A stretch of 64,000 nt of DNA from Collybia mongolica. Its lineage: Eukaryota; Basidiomycota; Agaricomycetes; Agaricales; Clitocybaceae. Shown here piece by piece: positions 39,241 to 52,381 of the stretch. Position numbers and translations under genes: made by a program. Positions within the stretch are counted from its first letter, which is position 1. Every line of letters begins with the position of its first letter. The notes beneath the pieces were generated by a model. That model ran no database searches, was not told the DNA's origin, and worked only from the letters and a program-made list of their open reading frames with translations. The stretch lies in NCBI GenBank assembly GCA_013420905.1, contig JAAXNY010000009.1, positions 434,001-498,000 of the forward strand, written 5' to 3'.

Positions 39241-42131
39241 ATGGACGCACTCAAGTCCCTCATACAGCCTCTAGTCGGCGGCGCAGGCGGCTCGTCTGTC
39301 GTTGATGGTATGAAGCTTGTTGTTCTTGGAGGCACTGTTGAGACCGCAAGACGGGTATCCAGCTCAGCATGGTACGGTCACCGCACTCCTCTCCGTTCTG
39401 TTATCCTTAAATTTGTCTACCCAGGTCCCACTTCGTGAACTGTAAGTGCCTTTCTAAGCTGTTGATGGGCGTTAGAGACCCGGATAAAACATTGCCACGC
39501 TGAGCCTCGTTGGTGTGCTGTCCCAAGGCTCTTAACCAGCGGGAGTATTCCTTTTGTGCCTCGTGGCCAATCGTTCTACATTTACAGTCATTTCATTGCA
39601 GCGAGCCACGATGACTACGCATTCATATTATGTCCCCTCGTTCCCATTAACGCTACCGGCCTTGCCACGATGCACGATCAACTGACCCACCGCCTTTCCC
39701 CATCTAGCCTTCTTCCTCACGGCCCACTTCTCCGAGGAAGACTACCCGTACGATTGGCTCATGCTTTGGCTCTCTCGCCGTCCTGAATGGCAACGGTCCC
39801 GAGAGTTCGAAACGACCACTCGGACCTCCGGTATTGGCTCCGATAACTCCAACTCGTTCGGTGAGGAGGACCTGTGGGATGATGGCACAACTCCCAACAC
39901 TGTTGTCACTGGGGATGATGACGATGACATCCCTGGGAAAGTTACAACTAGAGTCGTATTCCAACCCACATTCGATACTACTCATACCATATATTACAAG
40001 GGCCATTGGTTGCGAGTCAGGAGGGGAAGGAAGACGGACGGCAGTGGCACAGAAATGCTGTCCATCAGGTGTGTAGCTCGGTGTTGCCCCGAGCTACGGC
40101 TATCGCTAATCACTTGTTGACGCTTCTCTAATTAGCGTCGTCGCACGTTCTAATACGATTCTGAAGCAGCTCGTGCTACAGGCAAAGAAGGAATACGAGG
40201 CCGAGGCGATTCACCGAATCCAAATATACTTCGCGGATTCGCACGGATCGTGGCGATGGACAGACTCGCGTCACAAGAGGCCTATGGGAAGCATTGTTCT
40301 CAACCCGGGCGTCAAGGAGATGTTGTTGAACGATACCAAGGACTTCCTGAGGTCAGAGAAAGTAAGTATGGCGTCTTAATTGCTCTATAACAAGAGGTTA
40401 AATTTGGCGAATAATTATAGTGGTATGCAGACAGGGGCATCCCCTTCAGACGTGGTTACCTATTGCACGGTGTTCCGGGGTCTGGAAAATCCTCCCTTAT
40501 CCATGCAATTGCTGGTCAGCTCATGCTCGACATCTATGTCGTATCCCTGTCGGCGTCTTGGATCTCGGACTCGACACTCACCACGCTCATGGGTCGCGTT
40601 CCGGCGCGTTGCATTCTTCTCTTGGAAGATTTGGACGCCGCTTTTGTCCGAAGTGTCAGTCGCGAGGATGGGGATGGTTCAGAGGAGAAGGAGAAAAAAG
40701 AGGGTCCAGCTGAGCAGGGGCAAAGCAACAACAACGGAGGTAGCGGTGGATTTAGGAGCCACAGGAGCCGGCGAGGCGAGCACTTGTCGGATGTGAATAC
40801 TTTGAGTTTGAGCGGACTACTCAATGCGCTTGATGGAGTTGCAGCTGCGGAGGGTAGACTGCTGTTTGCGTACGTCTTGTTATTCCAGGAATCTCTCGCC
40901 TCTTATGGCTAATCCGACCTGCCTCTTCCAGCACCACAAATCATCTAGACAGGCTCGATCCTGCGCTATCGCGGCCTGGACGCATGGATGTTTGGGTTGA
41001 GTTCAAGAACGCAAGTAGATGGCAGGCCGAGGCGCTCTTTAGAAACTTCTTCCCTTCTACTGAAGACGAGACAATTGATGCAGAGCCTGAAGTTGCGTCT
41101 CCATCGACTCCCACCAGCCATGCAGGCACAACTGGCGCTCAAGGTTCGACATCGTCTTTATGGTCTATGTCACCATCATTCGCTTCCTCGGTAGCGTCGT
41201 TCTCATCAACACCACTCTCGTCACCATCCTCGCCCACATCGTCTACTACTCCGTCGCTTCCCAGAACGGCCGTTTCGATGACTGCGGCGCCCCTTCCCCA
41301 GTTCGGTGCGTCTAATCAGGCATACCTTCCCCCACCCGTGGAAGAACACATTCTGGCTAGCCATCATTCCGCCAAGCCGCTTGATGCTGTGAGGCTCGGT
41401 TTGTTGGCCAAGAAGTTCGCGGATGGCGTACCAGAGGAGGAGTTCAGCGTCGCTGCGCTCCAGGGCTGTAAGTCATTCGTTGTCGTGCACACGATACATC
41501 ATAACCAAGCTATCTTCTAGACCTGTTGAAGAACAAGTCTCAGCCCGAAGCCGCTGCGAGCGGAGTTGGAGAGTGGGTTATTAGCGAACGGCAGATGCGC
41601 GAGAGGCTGAAGCGAGAGAAGGAAGAGCGTGAAGTCAAGGAGAAACTCGAGGTAAGTTTGATAGGTATAGTGATTATGTATCTGTGCTTATCTGCTTATC
41701 TGGTGTGCCAGCGAGAGAAGAGAAAGAAGGCGCAAGCTGAAAAGGAGGCTGAGAAAAAGGAGTTGGAAAAGAAAGAGGCTGAGCTAGAGAAGATGCGCCA
41801 GCTTCTTGCAGATAAGGAGAAAGAGGAGAAGGAAAAGAAGGAGGAAGAAGAGAAGGAGAAGGAGCGCGAAAAGGAGGAAGATGAAGAGAAGAAAAAGCAG
41901 AGGGAGAAGGAGGATGAAGAGGTCGCCGAGAAAAAGGCTCGAGAAGAAGAGCTCAGAAAGAAAGAGGCTGAGGTAGAAGAAGCCCGCAAGAAGCAACAGC
42001 AACGGGAAGCAGAGGAATTGGATAGCGAGGATAGCGACGGGGAAAATATCCCCCCGCAGTCCGCCTCTCCCACAGCTCAGCCTTTGAATTGGGCTGCGGA
42101 TGAGACTTCGAGCTGGGGCTCGTTTGCCTGA
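39241..42131 (+). CDS. BCS1-like AAA ATPase with charged coiled-coil tail
   Basis: The N-terminal BCS1 region (LTAHFSEEDYPYDWLMLWLS, RPEWQRSREFE) is followed by an AAA domain: Walker A GVPGSGKSSL, Walker B CILLLEDLDAAF, second-region-of-homology ATTNHLDRLDPALSRPGRMD and VWVEFKNASRWQAEALFRNF. Yeast Bcs1 sits in the inner mitochondrial membrane and installs the Rieske protein into complex III. Mushrooms have many BCS1-like paralogs of unknown role. Here an acidic and Ser-rich insert separates Walker B from the downstream AAA part. About 200 residues, mostly Lys, Glu and Arg, form a long predicted coiled coil after the domain (41,540-42,030). At least seven introns. The start at 39241 is the first ATG of the N-terminal exon. 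Confidence 0.85.
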
Positions 42132-43216
42132 CTAGAAGGCGGTGACGACGCGAAATCCTCCAGTTCGTCGACGGCCACTGATACGCCAAACCCTACAAAT
42201 GATAACATATCGCAGCAAATGTTCCAGTCTTCATCACCCCCATCAACACCCAGTACCCCAGCATCATCCATTCGAGCGGATGCCGCATCGGCTCTCCTGA
42301 CGAGACATGCGGGCGGCTTCGCGTTAGTGTATCTCCAGCTCTATTTTCATCTGTACAAGTTATTATTGCATCTCATGGGATTAAGGGAGCGGTAGGGCGA
42401 TACAAACACTCCTGTTGCTCACTCCATCTGTCTACTTACCCATCCCTCACATACATACTCCATTCATCGTATATATCTCGCATCTCCATTCATCATCTCT
42501 GTGTACATCGTTTCTTTCTGCATGCTCTTTTTCGGTTATACATCCGTTTGTCTCTTTTTCAGTAACGATATATTCGCCTTCATTTCTGATTATCGTTGTT
42601 CACTTGATCGATCGTATATGCTCACACACGTTGCGGAAACGTGCAAATGATAATGTGAGAGAATGAGATGACATGTCGTGGGCGCTGTAAAAGACTGGCT
42701 CCAGATATATTTGCGTACTGGTTTCAAGTCAAAAGTGCGGTAATCATCCGCTAGCACTTATAAGCTAGATTGAATTTACTTCATCCGTATGGGCTTCCTC
42801 CCAGCGCATCAGATATCCCAATAGACATGACCTTCAGTTTTGAACGCTTGCTCTGTGAGGAGTTTGGAAATCTATTTCCATGCCTCATGGTCATTTAGGG
42901 GCGGAGAGTGTTCTGTGATCAGAGCAGGGTGACTGGCAATTATGCAGTACACTGCCAAATACTCGCTCGCACGTGGCTTTCAGCCTGAACCACCTGCCAG
43001 GAGCGTGAAGGTCGGAGTGCATTCGGAGTGTAAAATAAGTGTGCTCTGCTGGCAGTTCTACGCCTGCAATCTTCACTTGATCTCTGCCCTCACCCTGCGT
43101 AGAGTACCTGGCTTGCACAGTGACTTACCTCTCTTCTTGAACGCTACTTGCGATCTGTGCTATACTGTGGACAATATATCTTCAACTTTATTATTATTAA
43201 TTTCGTTCTTCTATCA
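42132..43216. other. Intergenic region
   Basis: Pyrimidine-rich downstream stretch (42400-42560), then no recognisable gene up to the two-gene module. Confidence 0.5.
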
Positions 43217-46200
43217 ATGTCTATTGCCCGTCTTTCTGATCCAGAAAGTATGTCGAGCTTGTTCGAGAATAATATGTTCCCACCACTGACTCTTTATCTA
43301 GATTTTGTACGAGTTGACCGGCAGTTCTGGTCATGCTTGAGGTGCAACGATGCTCCTGAGACGATGACTGCGCGAAATGCTGTCATCCACGGGGGTACAG
43401 CCAAGCATCGTCGGGCAACCGACCGTTATATCGCGAGTCTGGAAGCTGCTAACGTCGCTGCGATTGAAGATACCCCAGCTGGGGTTATGATGGTTGACGA
43501 TCATCCTGCAGGCGATCCGTTCTTAGATATGCTCAACACATATAGTCAAGTTGGCCATTCGACGCATCCATCACCATCTCCTGTACCATCTCCCCCACCA
43601 AGGCATTCCCCACAGATGGCCTCACCGGTTGGCCCCAGCGCAATACAAGTCGACGACTTCACTCCCAATGCATATCTTGCTCATCGCAGTCATCGGACCG
43701 CCGTTCGCGAAGCGGTTAACAGAGCACTCGACGCATTCTTACTCAACGAAGACTCTGAGGATGAGGATGAAGGATCCGGGGATGTTGAGGATACATTCTT
43801 ACCACCCCCTCCTGATGTTCCTGCTGGTAAGTATATAGATTGTTTCTTTTGGCCCCTTTCTCATTATTTATGTAGAAAAACATAGCCTGCCATCAGTCCG
43901 TCGCCGTGGTCTGCCCCGATCTTCGTCGACCGGCGTCTGGAGCCCCTGGCCTGACCGCAGTGTCAGCCTCTCTATTACCATCTCAATACGTTGCTAATGT
44001 AGATAACAGTCATGTACACTCGATATTGTATCACAACTCCCGAGGTCGGTTTTTTCGCACAAGGATTTGGAAGTCATGCTCTGGCTATTGGGGATTAATG
44101 GAGTGACTGATGTTCCTACGATTTCAAATATAAAATCCACGTCAGCAGTAATGGAGGGCTTGTGTGGTGTAGGCATCTCCCGCCATTTGGGCTCGTTGGG
44201 ACACACCTACCATATTATAAAACCATCATCTATGATAGCACTGGTAAATTCGGTGTGATCTCACTATGTTCTGTACTGACTGTTGGCCAGGATTTCTCAA
44301 ATCCGGCAGTGAGAAACGTACTAGAAGTTTACCCAGAAGATACTGGTCAGGTCTTGACATCTGCAACGCAAGCTTCTCGTTGGCTACATGATGTTGACCC
44401 ACGTCAGCTTACTCCCATGCACCGAGTCGGGCTCAATGATTACTTTATTATGGAGCCAACACGACTTCATGATGGAACTATGTGTATTCCAACGCGCTGG
44501 TACAAGAAAGCCGGTGTCATGATGTGTCGTGCCTGGCGAATGGTTACCTTGAATGGGGGTTGGGTTGTTGAACGATGGGATGAGTTAACGTTCTCTGATA
44601 ACCAGTTATTGCTTTCGGGGAGCGACATTCACAATGGTGCCTACCTAGGCCCAGGAGTCCCATCAGCAACTCAGATTGCAGGTATGAGACCCGGTGCATT
44701 GCAACAAACCAAATCTAATCGACTATAGGGATGCGAGATGCTTCCAATGAAGCGCTATTGCAGCCGTGGCCTTATCCACTCCTCAATGAGTGGCGCAACA
44801 AGGCCAAAGGTTCGCGAGTGGTTGCTTACCCTGCCTGGCTGTATTGTGACGACACATCTGGGAATCGGTCAAAAAAGTGGAACGAGCATAACAGCTTTCT
44901 CATGGTGGCCGCTGGGCTTCCACGAGAACATGCACATAAGGAAGCCAATGTTCACTTTCTCTGTACATCAAATGCTGCACCTCCATTAGAAATGCTCGAA
45001 GGTCTTGTAGAAGATATTGAGTATGATTGAAAGTTACGCTATATCGTAACATCCTTATTAATGTGACCTGTTAATTCTAGGGAATGCCAAGCGGGCGGTG
45101 TTCAGGTTTATGACTGTCTGTATGGAGAGACAGTATTGGTTATCCTCTGGATACTGGCCTTACTAGGTGATAACCCGATGCAGAGTGAATTTGCTTGCCA
45201 CTCTGGTCTTCGATCCAAATTCTTTTGCAGGTCATGCTGGGTCAAAGGTAAAGATGGTGATGACATGGAAGAATTTGACGGTGCTGTGAAAAAAGGTGAA
45301 ACCTTTGCAGGTATGGTGGATCGTGTTCGGCGTTTCATGCAGGTAAAACCAATAATATATAAGAATATACTATCATGACCCACATTTCTGGTCTCAATAT
45401 GTAGGTTGGCAAGGCACGCGAGCCTGTAGAAACTCAAAAGACGTCTCGCGAGATATTTGAGAACGTTGTTGGAATGGAGCCACAGAAGCAAAATCAGATA
45501 TTACGCACATCAACTGGTATCAAAGACAAATTTCTCCATTATTTCGTCGACAAAATTGACAATGCCCGCAAAAAGCTTAGTGGTCCTCGTGCTGAGGCCG
45601 CAACTCACCGAATTCTGTCCACAATGCCAACTCAGCCATATAGCCCAGTATGGCGCATAAAAGGTAAGCCATCGTGTCCTTTAGCATCATCTGTCTACTG
45701 GTGACATAGCAGGTCTGACAGATCTAAACCCACACTCTGATACACCAGTGGAAATTCTTCATGTTGTGTTGCTAGGCTTTGTGAAGTATTTTTGGCGGGA
45801 TGCCATTGAGCGTCTTTCAGATGAACAGAAGGGAACCCTGAAAGTTCGATTGACTAGTATGGACATGTCGGGACTTGACCCCTGCATTGGATCCTTGCGT
45901 GGTCATACGCTGGTCCAATACGCTGGATCACTCGTTGGACGTGACTTCAAAATTGTGGAGCAGATCGCAATATTTGCGCTGTATGACCTGTTGGATGACA
46001 GTATCCTTCAAACCTGGGCGGCTCTCGCAGCTCTGGTCCCCTTGATTTGGCAACCACGGATTGATAATCTTGATGAATATCTTGTATGTCTCGATACTCA
46101 GGCTAACTGTTAGCACAATCTAATTATCTTCGACAGGCAAAATTAGAAAGTGCAGTCGACCGCTTTCTAAACTGCACTGCTCGGTGGACTCCTCGCTGGT

Positions 46201-47250
46201 TTAATAAACCAAAATTTCATCTTCTTTTACATCTCGTCGCTCACATTCGACGCTTTGGGCCAGCAATCCTTTTTGCAACTGAAGTTTTTGAAGCATTCAA
46301 TGCCATCATACGGGCATGGTCAATTCATTCCAACCGTCAGGCTCCTTCCCTTGATATTGCGAAACATGCCGCTGGGCTTGTTCGTATCCGGCATCTTCTC
46401 AGTGGTGGCTTTTATGAAGAAAAATTTGAGTCAGAAGATGGCAGCGAGACATTAGTTACATGGCGACAAGCTGGATCCTCTGTCATTGCCTTAGGACAGA
46501 CACCGTCAATTGTATCAGCGAGACTTGGGTTGTCACCGCCTAGCAGGTCGCAGAAGGGTATATCCTCATTTCCTTTCTATCTAACTTTACTTATTCTCAA
46601 CTCCAGGAGCTGTCCGATATAAGAAAGCTTCATCAATTATAGATTGGTCAGACACAATTTCATCACAATACTACCGCCCACCTCCGGGAGGCTCAAAATT
46701 CAGGGAAGGCGCTGACATCGTTCTTGACAACGAGGATCGTGTCAGTATTGATGACTTTGTGGTCTACAAGGTTATTAATGGGGATTACCGGGTTGCAAAG
46801 ATCCGTGAAATCCTGTCTCGTCTTGAGGGAGCAATCACCCTTGTAGAGGTTTTTAATACTGGTGAACTGGCATTACCTTACTCAATGCCCACAATTCGGA
46901 GCTCTCAAGAATACTACATGGCAGCCCCTTCGGTAAATAAACCCTCACACTGTGAAAATTATCTGACACTTGCATCTTAGGATCTTCTCTGTGCTGCAAA
47001 CATTCAGCACAACTGTGCAGCTCACCCTTGTGACTTGTCGGGTTCCCGGCCTGTTTTCCTTGAGCGTGAGCGACTTCCTGATAATTCATTGGCGGTGCGC
47101 CATCATGGGGATTTGGCGGATCTAGTCCTTAATACTGGAAAAATGCGGGATGCGTGGATCATTCAAAGGTTTGTTCAGGCTGTGTCTACACTTGATCATG
47201 AAGAAATTATCCATATGGCTGTGAGAGATGATATAGCCAAGGCACTTTAA
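43217..47250 (+). CDS. Large protein of an expanded Agaricomycete family, possibly transposase-derived (module gene A)
   Basis: About ten exons join into an uninterrupted protein of roughly 1,050 residues. It begins MSIARLSDPENFVRVDRQFW and has a C2H2-like motif (CLRCNDAP...HGGTAKH). Then come an acidic disordered stretch, SCTLDIVSQLPRSVFSHKDL, NPAVRNVLEVYPEDTGQVL, YPAWLYCDDTSGNRSKKWNE, LGDNPMQSEFACHSGLRSKF with FCRSCW, DTPVEILHVVLLGFVKYFWR, CTARWTPRWFNKPKFHLLLH and AILFATEVFEAFNAIIRAWS. The end is VSTLDHEEIIHMAVRDDIAK. I recognise this as a family present in many copies in mushroom genomes and usually left as hypothetical. The N-terminal finger, the LHVVLLG...KYFWRD block and the late ATE-FEAFN block recall Tnp2/Plavaka-type transposases, but that is inference. 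All exons are open, so it is intact. A second gene follows after 129 bp. Confidence 0.6.
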
Positions 47251-47379
47251 ATGTATCTACATAGGTCTATTATTAAACGTTACAAGCGGTGTGGGACTTA
47301 GTGAAATTTCTAGATCCTGTCACACATGTGACAGGCCTATTTCCTCCTTTCCACGTCGCTCGGTGAACGCCTGTCCCCA

Positions 47380-48957
47380 ATGCCGATATCACACCTCATG
47401 AATCCTACCCCGATTTCCTATACAGGGTACCAATCTCCACCCAATCACACTCCTTTCGAACAATGTGAACCCCTACCTACTAGGAATTTTGCGAGTGGAA
47501 CGGGCTCCTCCATCGTACAAGGTGATCTCAACATTAGGTCGGTCACATACTCTGATGTACAGAGTCATAGTAGAAATCAGGAGGGCGGGCCTGGGCGTCA
47601 CCGCCGTCTTTCCTCCAGTGACACTCGACAATTGAAGCGGTCCAGGCAAGACGACATCTACGGTGACAACAATGCCGATGGTTATCATAGCAATTTCTCG
47701 AGTCCACAAAGTGCGCCTCAGCAGCTGCCACCACCTCCCCCAACAGGAAACAAAATTCCCATTGAAATTGTCACCGCTTTATCAACACAATATGGGCTCC
47801 TCGAAGACCAGAAGCGCATGCTCTTCTCGTTTCACAGGGTTAGTGGTTCTATACAATACTTAACTTATTTAATACTAAGCCATTACATGTGGACAGACCT
47901 GCTCGGCTTTGGAGAATGCTGATGCATTGACACGATTGATGTCTTTCGCACTTCAACTCAAGGTTGATGCGAAGCTTTCCAAGCTTATTGCCCAAGCGGA
48001 TGCCTCAGAGGCCCGCTTATCGGATGTCGTAGTTCCCAAAGCACCCTTCATTGTCTCTGATGAACTCCGAGTACATTCTCACTTTATATTCTGTTAATGT
48101 GTTTTAACCTTTCCCATTTTAGAATCATATCACCATGCTCGCGAAAAGAGTACTCATCCAGCCTGGTCGTATTAACTTCAAGGGCATGTGGGATGATGTC
48201 TTTGTTCGTATATCGTTTTGTGTTGTCACTCCCATTGCTAATGATGTTTATAGAATGATTTGAAGGAAGATGTTCAGCAGTTTGGAATCGAGAAAGTCAT
48301 CCAGACAGGACAGAAGAGCAAAATTGTCACGGCTTGCAAGCGGGCTTCGAACAGTGCTCGTGAACAACTTCGACGCCTCATAGCCAATGGCAATGTAGTG
48401 ACGGGGCCGACGGCGGCAACCCTCAATGCCTTTTGCTGTACCGTCTTGGAGAAATTCGGGACGGTGCAGCATGGAATTGATAAGGCCTTCATAGCTCAAG
48501 TTGCTTTAATGGTTCGATAGTATTTTTGATTCTTGATTGGTGGCTCACATCCTATCGACAGCGTGCATATGGGCTCAGTGTTGCGATCAAGAGAGAAGGC
48601 TCCGATATTAATTTGTCAGATATAGAGCCAGTGCCGCCACTGAAGAAGAAAGCAGCTGAAGAAGAAAGTGAGAAATTCTGGGAAGGCTTTGAAATCTTTC
48701 TGCGCAAGCTCAACAGCGAATGGCATGGAAATAAGGCAGGGTATAATGGGTGAGTCACACCATTCCGATTATTGTATATGACTCAAAGCCCATTTAATAG
48801 CCATATCCTAACGGTAATCGATGCCGATAACGCGCGCTTCCAGAAATCTGGTGAACCATCAAATGTTGCTCAGTCCGGCTCTTCTGCAAGTGCTTCGAGT
48901 GCTGCTACGTTGACAGCAGCCACTTCGACTTTGGACAATTTCATTGACCTGCTCTAA
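47380..48957 (+). CDS. Unknown protein next to gene A (module gene B)
   Basis: Six exons give about 430 residues. The N-terminus (MPISHLMNPTPISYTGYQSP) is disordered with a basic patch (RQLKRSRQDD) and a run of prolines. A helical part follows (IVTALSTQYGLLEDQKRMLF, LTRLMSFALQLKVDAKLSKL). Then come HITMLAKRVLIQPGRINFKG, KIVTACKRASNSAREQLRRL, IEPVPPLKKKAAEEESEKFW and a Ser/Ala/Thr-rich end (LDNFIDLL). I do not recognise the family. It has the same strand as gene A and lies 129 bp behind it, which suggests they move or work together. The basic patch and helices would fit DNA or chromatin binding, but nothing proves it. Confidence 0.65.
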
Positions 48958-49689
48958 TAACTACTCATATATATCCCCTCGTTCTTTTATTATCGTTTAA
49001 TCATATCCAGTATATTCCTTACTATCTACCCTATCAGTTTTACGCAAAGCGTACAATATAATCGTTGATTGCCCTGCATTATATTCATTATAAGGTTGTT
49101 TCATGGATGGAACTGAGGGTGACAACGAGAGAAGCTTGCGCAATTGCTTGCAGGTAGCTTGAAGATAAAATGGCAAGCCTAGTTCATTCTAGCGATCCAA
49201 GGAGACTATAAGCGTAGAACTATAGTACGGGTGCACTCTATTTGTTAGTTTGCGTGTTTGATGGTGAATGGGCAGCGTGAGAAATGAAATGGCAAGCAGA
49301 CTGCATTCTCTGGTTTGGCAGTGTAGATGGTGGTCTGAGTATTAATGGGGTCAAAATTCCGCAGCTTCACATAGTTTTTAATCTCTTGCTTTTCTGAGCA
49401 TGTGGTAAAAAGTTGGGGTCGTGGGGTCGTCGTGAAATGGTCGGACGTTTGTGTCCTAGGGAAGTGATTGAATGTGGGGATAAGTGTAATTATAACATGG
49501 ATCATCTGAACTGTGACAAGATCTTGGTGAAAAGCACAGCCAAAGGGAACCGCAGCAAGCAAATTTGGCTTTGGTGTAGTTTGGTCACACCTTCTGGCAC
49601 AATCACTGCAATCAGCCTGCGGCAGCCTCGTTTCTATTTAACGAAAACCCCACCCATCCGCCCCCGGCTCACCAACGAACTCATAAAAA
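48958..49689. other. Intergenic region
   Basis: AT-rich spacer. A GTGCACTC element near 49231 is partly complementary to GAGTGCA near 43016 (see rejected items). No gene supported. Confidence 0.5.
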
Positions 49690-52381
49690 ATGGCAACAAG
49701 CACATCAGGCCTTGGGACAGAGATAGTCTCTGTTATCAACAAACTTCAAGACGTTTTCACGGCAGTAGGCTCGTCTGCTTCGCAGATTGACCTTCCTCAG
49801 ATATGTGTACTTGGAAGTCAGAGTAGTGGGAAGAGTAGTGTCCTTGAGGTGAGTTGGTCTATCAGCTGCACATTACAAGTGTTTCAACTATTGAGGACTC
49901 TATCTTAGAACATAGTTGGACGAGATTTCCTGCCGCGTGGTACTGGTATCGTGACGCGGCGTCCACTGGTAAGAACCAATTGAATCATCTTGATTATTGG
50001 AATTCACTCTCTACATAGGTACTCCAACTCATCAACAGGACGTCGACTGGTGCCTCCGCAACCTCTCGTAGGTACTCTCGTCAGCGCTAGGAACTTGTAA
50101 AGCTTATACCAATCCTGCAGCACAAATTAATGGTGCAGACAAAGGAACCGATAAGGCCGCCAACGCAGACGAATGGGGTGAATTTCTTCACCTCCCCGGA
50201 GAGAAGTTCTACGATTTTGGGAAGATTAGGGACGAAATAGTACGCGACACGGAGGCAAAAACGGGCAAAAACGCTGGAATCTCTCCTCAACCCATCAACC
50301 TCCGCATATTCTCTCCTAATGTCCTGACATTGACACTCGTAGATCTGCCAGGATTGACCAAGGTACCAGTTGGCGACCAACCACGCGATATCGAGAAGCA
50401 GATCCGCGACATGCTATTAAAGTATATATCGAAACCAGCATGTATCATTCTCGCCGTCACCGCTGCAAACACCGATTTGGCCAACTCCGATGGCTTAAAG
50501 ATGGCGAGAGAGGTGGATCCTGACGGTACAAGGACGATAGGTGTCTTGACAAAGGTCGACTTGATGTGAGCTCTGTACCTATTGTCTATTCCCTCAAATC
50601 CGAGCTAATCGTTTTTGGACGGAATTTAGGGACAAAGGCACAGATGTTGTAGATATCCTGGCTGGTCGCATCATTCCCCTCCGCCTCGGATACGTACCAG
50701 TTGTGAATCGTGGCCAACGTGACATTGAAAACTCCAAGCCTATCAGCCAGGCACTTGACCACGAACGCGAGTATTTTGAAAATCACCCCTCGTACAAGGG
50801 TAAAGCCCAGTTCTGCGGCACTCCTTTCCTTGCACGAAAACTAAACATGGTACGCGGCTACATACTGTTCCCCATCCCCTGCCTAACTTAATTATTTAGA
50901 TTCTTATGCATCACATCCGAGCAACTATACCAGACATTAAAGCCCGGATCACGCAGCAACTGCAGAAATACAACGCAGAACTGCTCACTCTTGGTGGGCC
51001 TCTCGGGGATGGCAATGCTGGCAATGTGGTCCTATCGGTCATCACTGAATTCACGTCCGAATTTCGGACAACTATTGATGGTAACACCAACGACCTGTCA
51101 TTGAACGAGCTTTCCGGAGGAGCGCGTATTAGTTTTGTCTTCCACGAACTCTTCAACAATGGTGTTAAAAGCATCGACCCCTTCGACCAAGTAAAGGATG
51201 GTGATATTCGAACAATCCTGTACAACTCTTCTGTGAGTTCTGCCTCTTATAACTCTTGCTAATGTATTTTCAACCTATACCCAGGGTTCTACGCCATCGC
51301 TTTTCGTCGGCACGGCGGCTTTCGAAGTAATCGTGAAGCAACAGATCAAACGCCTAGAAGACCCCAGCCTAAAGTGTTGTCAATTGGTCTATGACGAGCT
51401 CATCCGTATCCTCGGCCAACTGTTGGGAAAAATTGTAAGCCTTCCTCCGCCTTTAGTTCGTTTCTTCGGAACATAAACACCCTTTGGGCACCTCTAGCAA
51501 GCATTCCGACGATACCCCGCACTTCGTGAACGTTTTAACTCAGTCGTGGTTAATTTCTTTAAACAATCAATGACACCTACGACGAAATTAGTGACTGATA
51601 TGGTTGCGTGTGTACAATTTACCCGACGGACTTCACCGCCTAACTTCAAAATATTAGCATGCAGGCTTGCTATGTAAACACCACCCATCCTGATTTCATC
51701 AGTGGACACAAGGTACATCAGATTATACTCAAAATTTTTTATACTCATGAAACTCCACAGGCAACCGCCGTCGTTACTGAACGCCTCAACGCTGGCAAAC
51801 CTCAAGCACCCCCCGACCCCAAGAACACAAAAGCGCAGGTTAACAACAACAAAGATCTCGATGTCGATGCTCGAAAGGAGGAGCCAAGCTTCTTTGGATC
51901 GTTCTTTTCTGCAAAAACGGGTGCGGCGAAGAAGAAAGGACAGTCTGTAATGGAAGCTCCACCTGCGATTATTAGGCCACAAGCAGCCTTGAACGAGAGA
52001 GAGACAATGGAGACCGAGGTTATCAGTTGCGTAGACACATTTACTCTGCGGTTTATCGATATTGACTATGCAAATTTAGAACTGCTCATTCACTCATACT
52101 TCAACATCGTAAAGCGGGAGATGATCGACATGGTACCAAAAGCTATTTCGCTTACTCTCGTGTCGCACTCGAAGGAGAACCTCCAACGAGAGTTGCTGCA
52201 AGAGCTTTACAAGCCTGAGGTCCTTGATGATTTATTGAAGGAGAGCGAATTTGTCGTTAGCCGAAGGAAGGAGGTTGTCAGTATGGTGCAAGCCCTCAAT
52301 AAGGCTGAAGAGTGCGTCTCTTAGTCCCTGCCTAATTCATGCCTCTTATTCTTTCTCTCCAGGATCGTTGCAGGCGTCTAA
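49690..52381 (+). CDS. VPS1: Dynamin-like GTPase VPS1
   Basis: A dynamin-family GTPase of about 700 residues for membrane fission in vacuolar protein sorting, endocytosis and peroxisome division. GTPase motifs are G1 [12 protein letters not shown], the switch region [16 protein letters not shown]3 DLPGLTKV, and G4 TKVD. A dynamin middle region and a Lys-rich variable insert ([18 protein letters not shown]) follow. The GTPase effector domain reads [34 protein letters not shown] and [20 protein letters not shown]. An RETMETEVI...YFNIVKRE effector domain without a PH domain fits Vps1 better than Dnm1. More than ten short introns. The last exon adds EIVAGV with the stop at 52379-52381. An intron inside the effector domain must be removed (ATC-A | AA-CTG) to keep IKLLIHSY. 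Confidence 0.92.

Follow-up and report, generated by a model that had tools for sequence, protein, structure and literature searches.

Genes A and B and the element that carries them

The DNA analysed here (the window) is a stretch of 64,000 nt from the basidiomycete Collybia mongolica, positions 434001-498000 of contig C9 in a genome of 46 Mb and 26 contigs. Two neighbouring genes on its + strand, called A and B, are carried by a DNA transposon of 6.4 kb that was active recently. Gene A (43217..47250, +) has 11 exons separated by 10 GT..AG introns of 46-62 bp, encodes 1174 aa and is the predicted transposase, of the CMC/RAG1 type, while gene B (47398..48957, +) has 6 exons and encodes a partner protein of 432 aa without known domain. 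The splice models of both genes were built by hand and by script on GT..AG introns, from the DNA alone and without transcripts, and both frames are open from start to stop across the 17 exons. Because of this openness through 17 exons and the existence of three further copies, the gene models are considered more than chance. The two long, multi-exon, uninterrupted genes on one strand that the initial annotation had described were present, but the distance between them is 147 bp and not 129 bp, since the start ATG 47398 of B is supported by the homologue P0121, which begins at a matching MNP.

Queries with A and with B each matched the same four places in the genome, all of them near-identical copies, and B sits directly 3' of A in all four. 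The alignment of the four copies ends on both sides at the borders of a 6378 bp element (42948..49325, +), which includes the TA at either border; with TA taken as the duplicated target, it spans 42950-49323 (+). The span 43217..48957 proposed earlier falls short of this repeating unit. The three other copies share 99.78-99.88% DNA identity with the window copy, and the flanking DNA is unrelated on both sides. The earlier idea of a possible mobile element was thus borne out by four near-identical copies with exact inverted ends, and the absence of copies elsewhere, which had been named as an argument against it, is contradicted by them.

The left terminal inverted repeat TACACTGCCAAA (42948..42959, +), composed of TA and CACTGCCAAA, matches the right terminal inverted repeat TTTGGCAGTGTA (49314..49325, -) perfectly over 12 bp, and the terminal repeats anticipated for a mobile element were therefore found. 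Inside the TA, the termini CACTGCCAAA..TTTGGCAGTG are of the 5'-CA..TG-3' type expected of CMC/CMCT elements and read CAC..GTG. At each of the 8 ends present in the four copies, CAC is adjoined by TA. When TA was scored as target, a 2-bp repeat flanked 4/4 copies and a 3-, 5-, 7- or 8-bp repeat 0/4; when TA was scored as part of the inverted repeat, a 2-bp repeat flanked 2/4 copies and longer repeats 0/4. From these counts TA is read as the target and CACTGCCAAA as a 10-bp inverted repeat, though TA might instead belong to the repeat. For the target duplication of 2-5 bp typical of CMC/CMCT elements, TA is a candidate, found at 8/8 ends and again in a second family of this genome, either as the duplicated target or as part of the repeat.

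The exact 12-mer TACACTGCCAAA occurs 14 times in the genome (control pattern once), and 8 of these sites are the ends of the four copies. Within about 4.5 kb of the other 6 sites, no element DNA, A, B or partner gene of the L028 type (see below) was found. These spare sites were considered as non-autonomous relatives and rejected, as they appear to be chance matches without element traces, although 6 still exceeds the single match of the control. A subterminal repeat array was not found either: the repeats present were a pair of 26 nt (81%) close to the right end and an inverted pair of 19 nt (79%), insufficient for a binding array.

The four copies differ at 23 sites, every one private to a single copy. 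Polarised by the majority, 21 of the 23 differences are C>T or G>A and the other two A>G; 19 of the 21 fall in CpG, which makes up 18% of the C+G positions (binomial p 1.3e-12), and 2 changes of the C>T type lie outside CpG. Both A and B are open in 3/4 copies; in the fourth, at C1:7.33 Mb, A is interrupted by a stop at codon 355. Read from the alignment, the divergence pattern is star-like, as left by a recent burst of copies that have since decayed by changes of the methylation type, and its location mostly in CpG suggests that host methylation acts on newly inserted copies.

Family, fold and predicted active site of A

In the protein search with A, 7993 candidates were scored, of which at least 656 were relatives at E<=0.001. 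Among the 120 relatives listed, none had a precomputed Pfam domain and most were hypothetical or uncharacterized proteins, whereas at least 8 carried the UniRef name 'Transposase'; the named relatives among those listed come from genera which we take to be mushroom-forming fungi. The alignment used below comprises 88 of these 120 sequences, the other 32 being omitted for partial coverage, great length or to keep the set small.

No Pfam match was obtained for A or B at E<=10. In 36 A relatives scanned at E<=1, 13 families appeared, each in a single member and with a best E of 0.02; the transposase model TNP-like_RNaseH_C reached E 0.15 in one of the 36, far from a call. Transposase_21 (Tnp2) matched neither A at E<=10 nor any of the 36 relatives at E<=1, and the comparison of A with Tnp2, Plavaka and KDZ profiles that had been suggested as a check gave no matches. 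A search of the PDB by sequence with the A profile returned nothing real. In viral contigs, 30 pattern matches for A relatives were obtained and 0 confirmed, and the search of a viral structure library gave nothing at E<=0.001.

In a fold search with the predicted model of the relative P0001, an RNase H-type core was recognised, and RAG1 and Transib were the best solved-structure matches of the A family, at about 12% identity to its core. Judged by this model, A appears to be a cut-and-paste enzyme that shares its core with RAG1, the recombinase of antibody genes. The RNase H fold with DDE residues that had been foreseen for A was thus found, through the relative's model and the 88-sequence alignment together.

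The first predicted catalytic Asp (D481/D482 in YCDDTSGN, 44848..44853, +) lies in the model where the first RNase H strand ends, and both Asp are present in 88/88 relatives. The second predicted Asp, D568 in LLGDNP (45169..45171, +), is likewise invariant (88/88), and 19 residues past it lies the zinc pair C(2)C (C587 and C590; 45226..45237, +; 88/88), a signature of CMCT transposases (PMC12730594; this source, PMC12810828 and PMC1636069 are cited from excerpts of their text). The DTPVEILH block (residues 722-729; 45739..45762, +) ends in H729, with H in 87/88 relatives and one gap. It is followed by the H(3)H pair H864 and H868 (46218..46232, +; 88/88) and by the predicted catalytic Glu, E885 in ATEVFEAFN (46281..46283, +; 88/88). 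In P0001 numbering, D472, D473, D559, C578, C581, H851, H855 and E872 are kept in 88/88 aligned relatives and H716 of the DxPxEILH block in 87/88 with one gap, corresponding in the window to D481, D482, D568, C587, C590, H864, H868, E885 and H729. With the DDE/C(2)C/H(3)H signature used for CMCT (PMC12730594), all eight scored residues, the first Asp being counted as a DD pair, were found in 88/88 relatives and in A itself. Besides these, A has an N-terminal C2H2-like zinc finger (C40, C43, H58 and H64; 43334..43408, +), a motif assigned by eye. The C2H2-like motif, the D-x-P-V-E-I-L-H block and the ATEVFEAFN block (883-891) pointed out in the initial annotation could all be located. A predicted identity and a testable active site are thereby offered for a family of at least 656 mostly hypothetical proteins, for which Pfam gave chance-level singletons only in 37 sequences.

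Two BAH-like domains are assigned to A. One precedes the catalytic core (44333..44772, +; about residues 325-455, by equivalence to model residues 313-446), and the other is C-terminal, with a conserved C/H cluster (46506..47166, +; about residues 960-1147). The BAH fold was found in the BAH-like domains of the A family, while the Pfam BAH profile matched neither A (E<=10) nor the 36 relatives (E<=1). By sequence, the inner domain gave no match to BAH, and the profiles of the inner and the C-terminal domain gave no significant match to each other. The conserved residues here (A8/A9) spell no obvious aromatic cage for a methylated histone tail, as read from sequence. The C..H.C....C cluster (C1089, H1095, C1097 and C1102; window 46990-47031) is kept in 84-85/88 relatives and could be a zinc site bordering the C-terminal BAH-like domain. 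The presence of BAH-like domains raises the question of whether such transposases choose chromatin.

Gene B and its linkage to A

A single homologue of B was found, P0121, which is 32% identical in one comparison and 37% in another. Its predicted model is all helix at low confidence (pLDDT 48.6), which agrees with the earlier description of B as helical as far as such a model allows; the description as basic holds only mildly, with a pI of 8.2. Five B relatives compared with Pfam gave chance-level matches only.

Five more A-family loci are present in the genome (L028, L029, L030, L031 and L032), and at each of them A is preceded by a second gene that lies on the other strand. The partner gene of L031 is cut short by a broken end and that of L032 carries a stop; both were missed by the search with the L028 partner and were seen by reading the DNA. 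The partner genes of L028-L032 were not found by tblastn with B, but the profile of B and P0121 matched the profile of the L028-type partner family with a probability score of 86.9 and E 4.2e-6 over 91 columns (controls 0.1 and 0.4). A B-type gene therefore stands beside 9/9 A-family loci found, in a tandem or a divergent gene order, and the linked pairs that the initial annotation had proposed to look for across the genome do exist. Among the best candidates scored with B or the L028 partner as query, no B-type copy away from an A-family locus was found; divergent ones would be missed in this way. The recurrence at 9/9 A loci in two gene orders suggests a shared task rather than one capture. 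Gene B, travelling with A, is the likely partner of A, and the proposal of B as an accessory protein fits this linkage.

The L028/L029 element is 6695 bp as aligned, with copies 99.1% identical and ends TACACCGCCATTTGTGT, which likewise show TA next to CAC. In the L031/L032 family the right end TACACCACCAAAT is common, but no repeat corresponding to it is present at TTAAAGCC, the left edge of the alignment. A candidate end of L032 lies roughly 1 kb beyond this edge, and L031 appears to be truncated. One related element in this genome encodes a partner protein with 97% identity to a protein of Collybia nuda.

Proposed classification and mechanism

Taken together, the mobility of the element, its ends, the catalytic signature, the RAG1/Transib-like core of the modelled relative and the linkage of B make it very probable that the element is a two-gene DNA transposon of the cut-and-paste type, autonomous and recently active, and that it belongs to the CMC/CMCT supergroup (CACTA-Mirage-Chapaev-Transib-RAG1 kind). 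In plants, CACTA elements follow a two-gene plan with TnpD and TnpA, of which TnpA binds the ends. In the proposed mechanism, A would bind the CACTGCCAAA ends, excise the element through metal-dependent DDE chemistry, in which hairpins probably form as they do with RAG1 and Transib, and join the excised element into TA, which would be duplicated in this way. B, probably helical, may act as a second subunit or end-binding partner, by analogy with TnpA for TnpD in CACTA, and the BAH-like domains may help A to settle on nucleosomes or chosen chromatin. The host would then decay the copies by C-to-T change in CpG. Fast-evolving TnpA-like partners have also been suggested in an animal CACTA relative (PMC1636069).

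A wider proposal, for which our confidence is low, is that the mushroom family forms a RAG1-grade transposase lineage with BAH-type modules flanking the core, always accompanied by a fast-evolving helical partner; such a two-component, chromatin-guided, TA-targeting system would parallel RAG1 and its partner RAG2, which reads chromatin, with an independent origin in fungi. In the literature searched, nothing recognisably on a BAH-bearing transposase or on the A-B family was found, Repbase entries lying outside that search. The initial annotation had regarded the locus as a candidate for an undescribed system. This does not hold for the superfamily, which is known, but it may stand for the architecture within the same literature: a variable order of the two genes, a RAG1-type transposase with BAH-like domains and a large, mostly unnamed protein family were not found described in combination. 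The element adds a two-gene, apparently TA-targeting branch, with intact near-identical copies, to the transposon group that gave RAG1.

Comparison with known transposons

CAC..GTG ends, a DDE core of the same group and the two-gene plan known from plants are shared with EnSpm/CACTA, including fungal EnSpm and CNIRT6, from which the element differs by lacking a Transposase_21 match. EnSpm/CACTA elements also have 3-bp duplications (PMC12730594, PMC12810828), in contrast to 0/4 copies here, TA counted either way. CACTA-like sequences were reported in 2006 in Coprinopsis cinerea and other fungi (PMC1636069). In the excerpt of that source, the D-X-L/M-H-X3-L-G motif in 3/4 fungal proteins of the TRC (fungal CACTA superfamily) resembles EILHVVLLG of A, whereas TRC was recognised by Transposase_21, unmatched by A; the two are set apart by description, and the family of A may be among them.

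By ends and target, the nearest systems are those of the TA group, ESTA and CNEST, with proteins likened by description and not by sequence. CAC.. ends flanked by TA, as in ESTA and CNEST, were found in the present copies and also in the L028/L029 family. CNEST, a CMC element of the basidiomycete Cryptococcus neoformans, is about 7.2 kb long with inverted ends from CAC, TA duplications seen directly in new insertions and a DDE transposase without Repbase matches; it differs in having 33-bp ends starting CACGG and one transposase gene named (PMC12810828, as excerpted). ESTA elements are EnSpm-like, with TA duplications and a RAG1-similar transposase bearing the C(2)C/H(3-4)H signature, but the three families described are from Pucciniomycotina (rusts) and have a TET/JBP gene, families without TET being listed in the supplement (PMC12730594). 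A BAH-like domain or B-type partner is not mentioned in the excerpted description of ESTA (PMC12730594).

Alternative explanations

Some observations weigh against the classification proposed above. B-type genes have no recognisable domain and A has a full predicted catalytic core; passenger genes such as TET/JBP occur in other fungal transposons (PMC12730594); and the A-family profile matched three in-genome Plavaka proteins (probability score 42.4, E 2.6e-4; control 0.3), with the second D, C(2)C, the ILH block, H..H and E aligned in order and the first D unpaired.

The points on B would fit A as the whole transposase, with B as a rider gene or silencing-escape factor outside the transposition machine. 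This is held to be unlikely, though it deserves real weight; the pairing of A and B at every locus found, in both gene orders, speaks for a shared task over a single capture.

A plain Plavaka (or KDZ) transposon is very improbable. Plavaka shares the host genome and the order of core motifs bar the first D, and is plentiful here, with 119 matching pieces of its profile PF18759, several with identical scores at different places; we know of no B-type partner in Plavaka. None of the 119 matches lies at C9:477217-482957, however, and in addition to the lack of any Pfam match of A (E<=10), the 36 relatives gave no Plavaka or KDZ match at E<=1. The termini CAC..GTG beside TA differ from TGT..ACA or CATCA..TGATG of Plavaka A/B (PMC12730594). 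A duplication of the KDZ type, 7-8 bp in PMC12730594 and 4-8 bp in PMC12810828, was absent in its 7- or 8-bp form around 4/4 copies. Membership of Plavaka/KDZ was rejected by profiles and termini, and the earlier label of a Tnp2/Plavaka-like transposase survives as a wider relationship, with the RNase H-type fold and DDE residues, and not as Plavaka itself.

Domestication of A and B for a host function, also raised in the initial annotation, is hardly credible. In its favour, both genes are intact in 3/4 copies and the active-site residues are invariant across the A family, but exact inverted ends on four near-identical copies at unrelated sites, with a stop in one, are traits of a mobile element, and a single locus without transposon ends is not the case here; domestication was rejected on this basis.

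RAG2 is a beta propeller with a PHD finger, and RAG-like elements make a 5-bp target duplication. A strict fungal RAG1-RAG2 counterpart with B as a RAG2-like subunit, which the RAG1 fold match of the A family and the presence of two genes might suggest, is extremely improbable, since the P0121 model is all-helical, though at low confidence, no 5-bp duplication was found in the four copies, and the RAG1 relationship is common to the whole CMCT group (PMC12730594). Compared with RAG1/Transib, A adds a C2H2 finger and BAH-like domains to the core shared in the P0001 model, and B is not recognisably RAG2.

Surroundings of the copies

A dynamin-family gene (PF00350, E 3.4e-34, in a later exon) has its likely ATG at 49690, 364 bp past the right end of the element, and the insertion in the window seems to sit in a promoter region. 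Near copy L025, a frame with an Fn3-like domain ends at a distance of about 200 bp; a frame that resembles an MFS transporter, with a score under the Pfam threshold, lies about 1.8 kb from copy L027. On its left side the element in the window is preceded by an AAA ATPase gene (PF00004), and a Glu/Lys-rich stretch in the gene to the left is encoded by imperfect repeats, each about 53 nt long (window 41736-41977).

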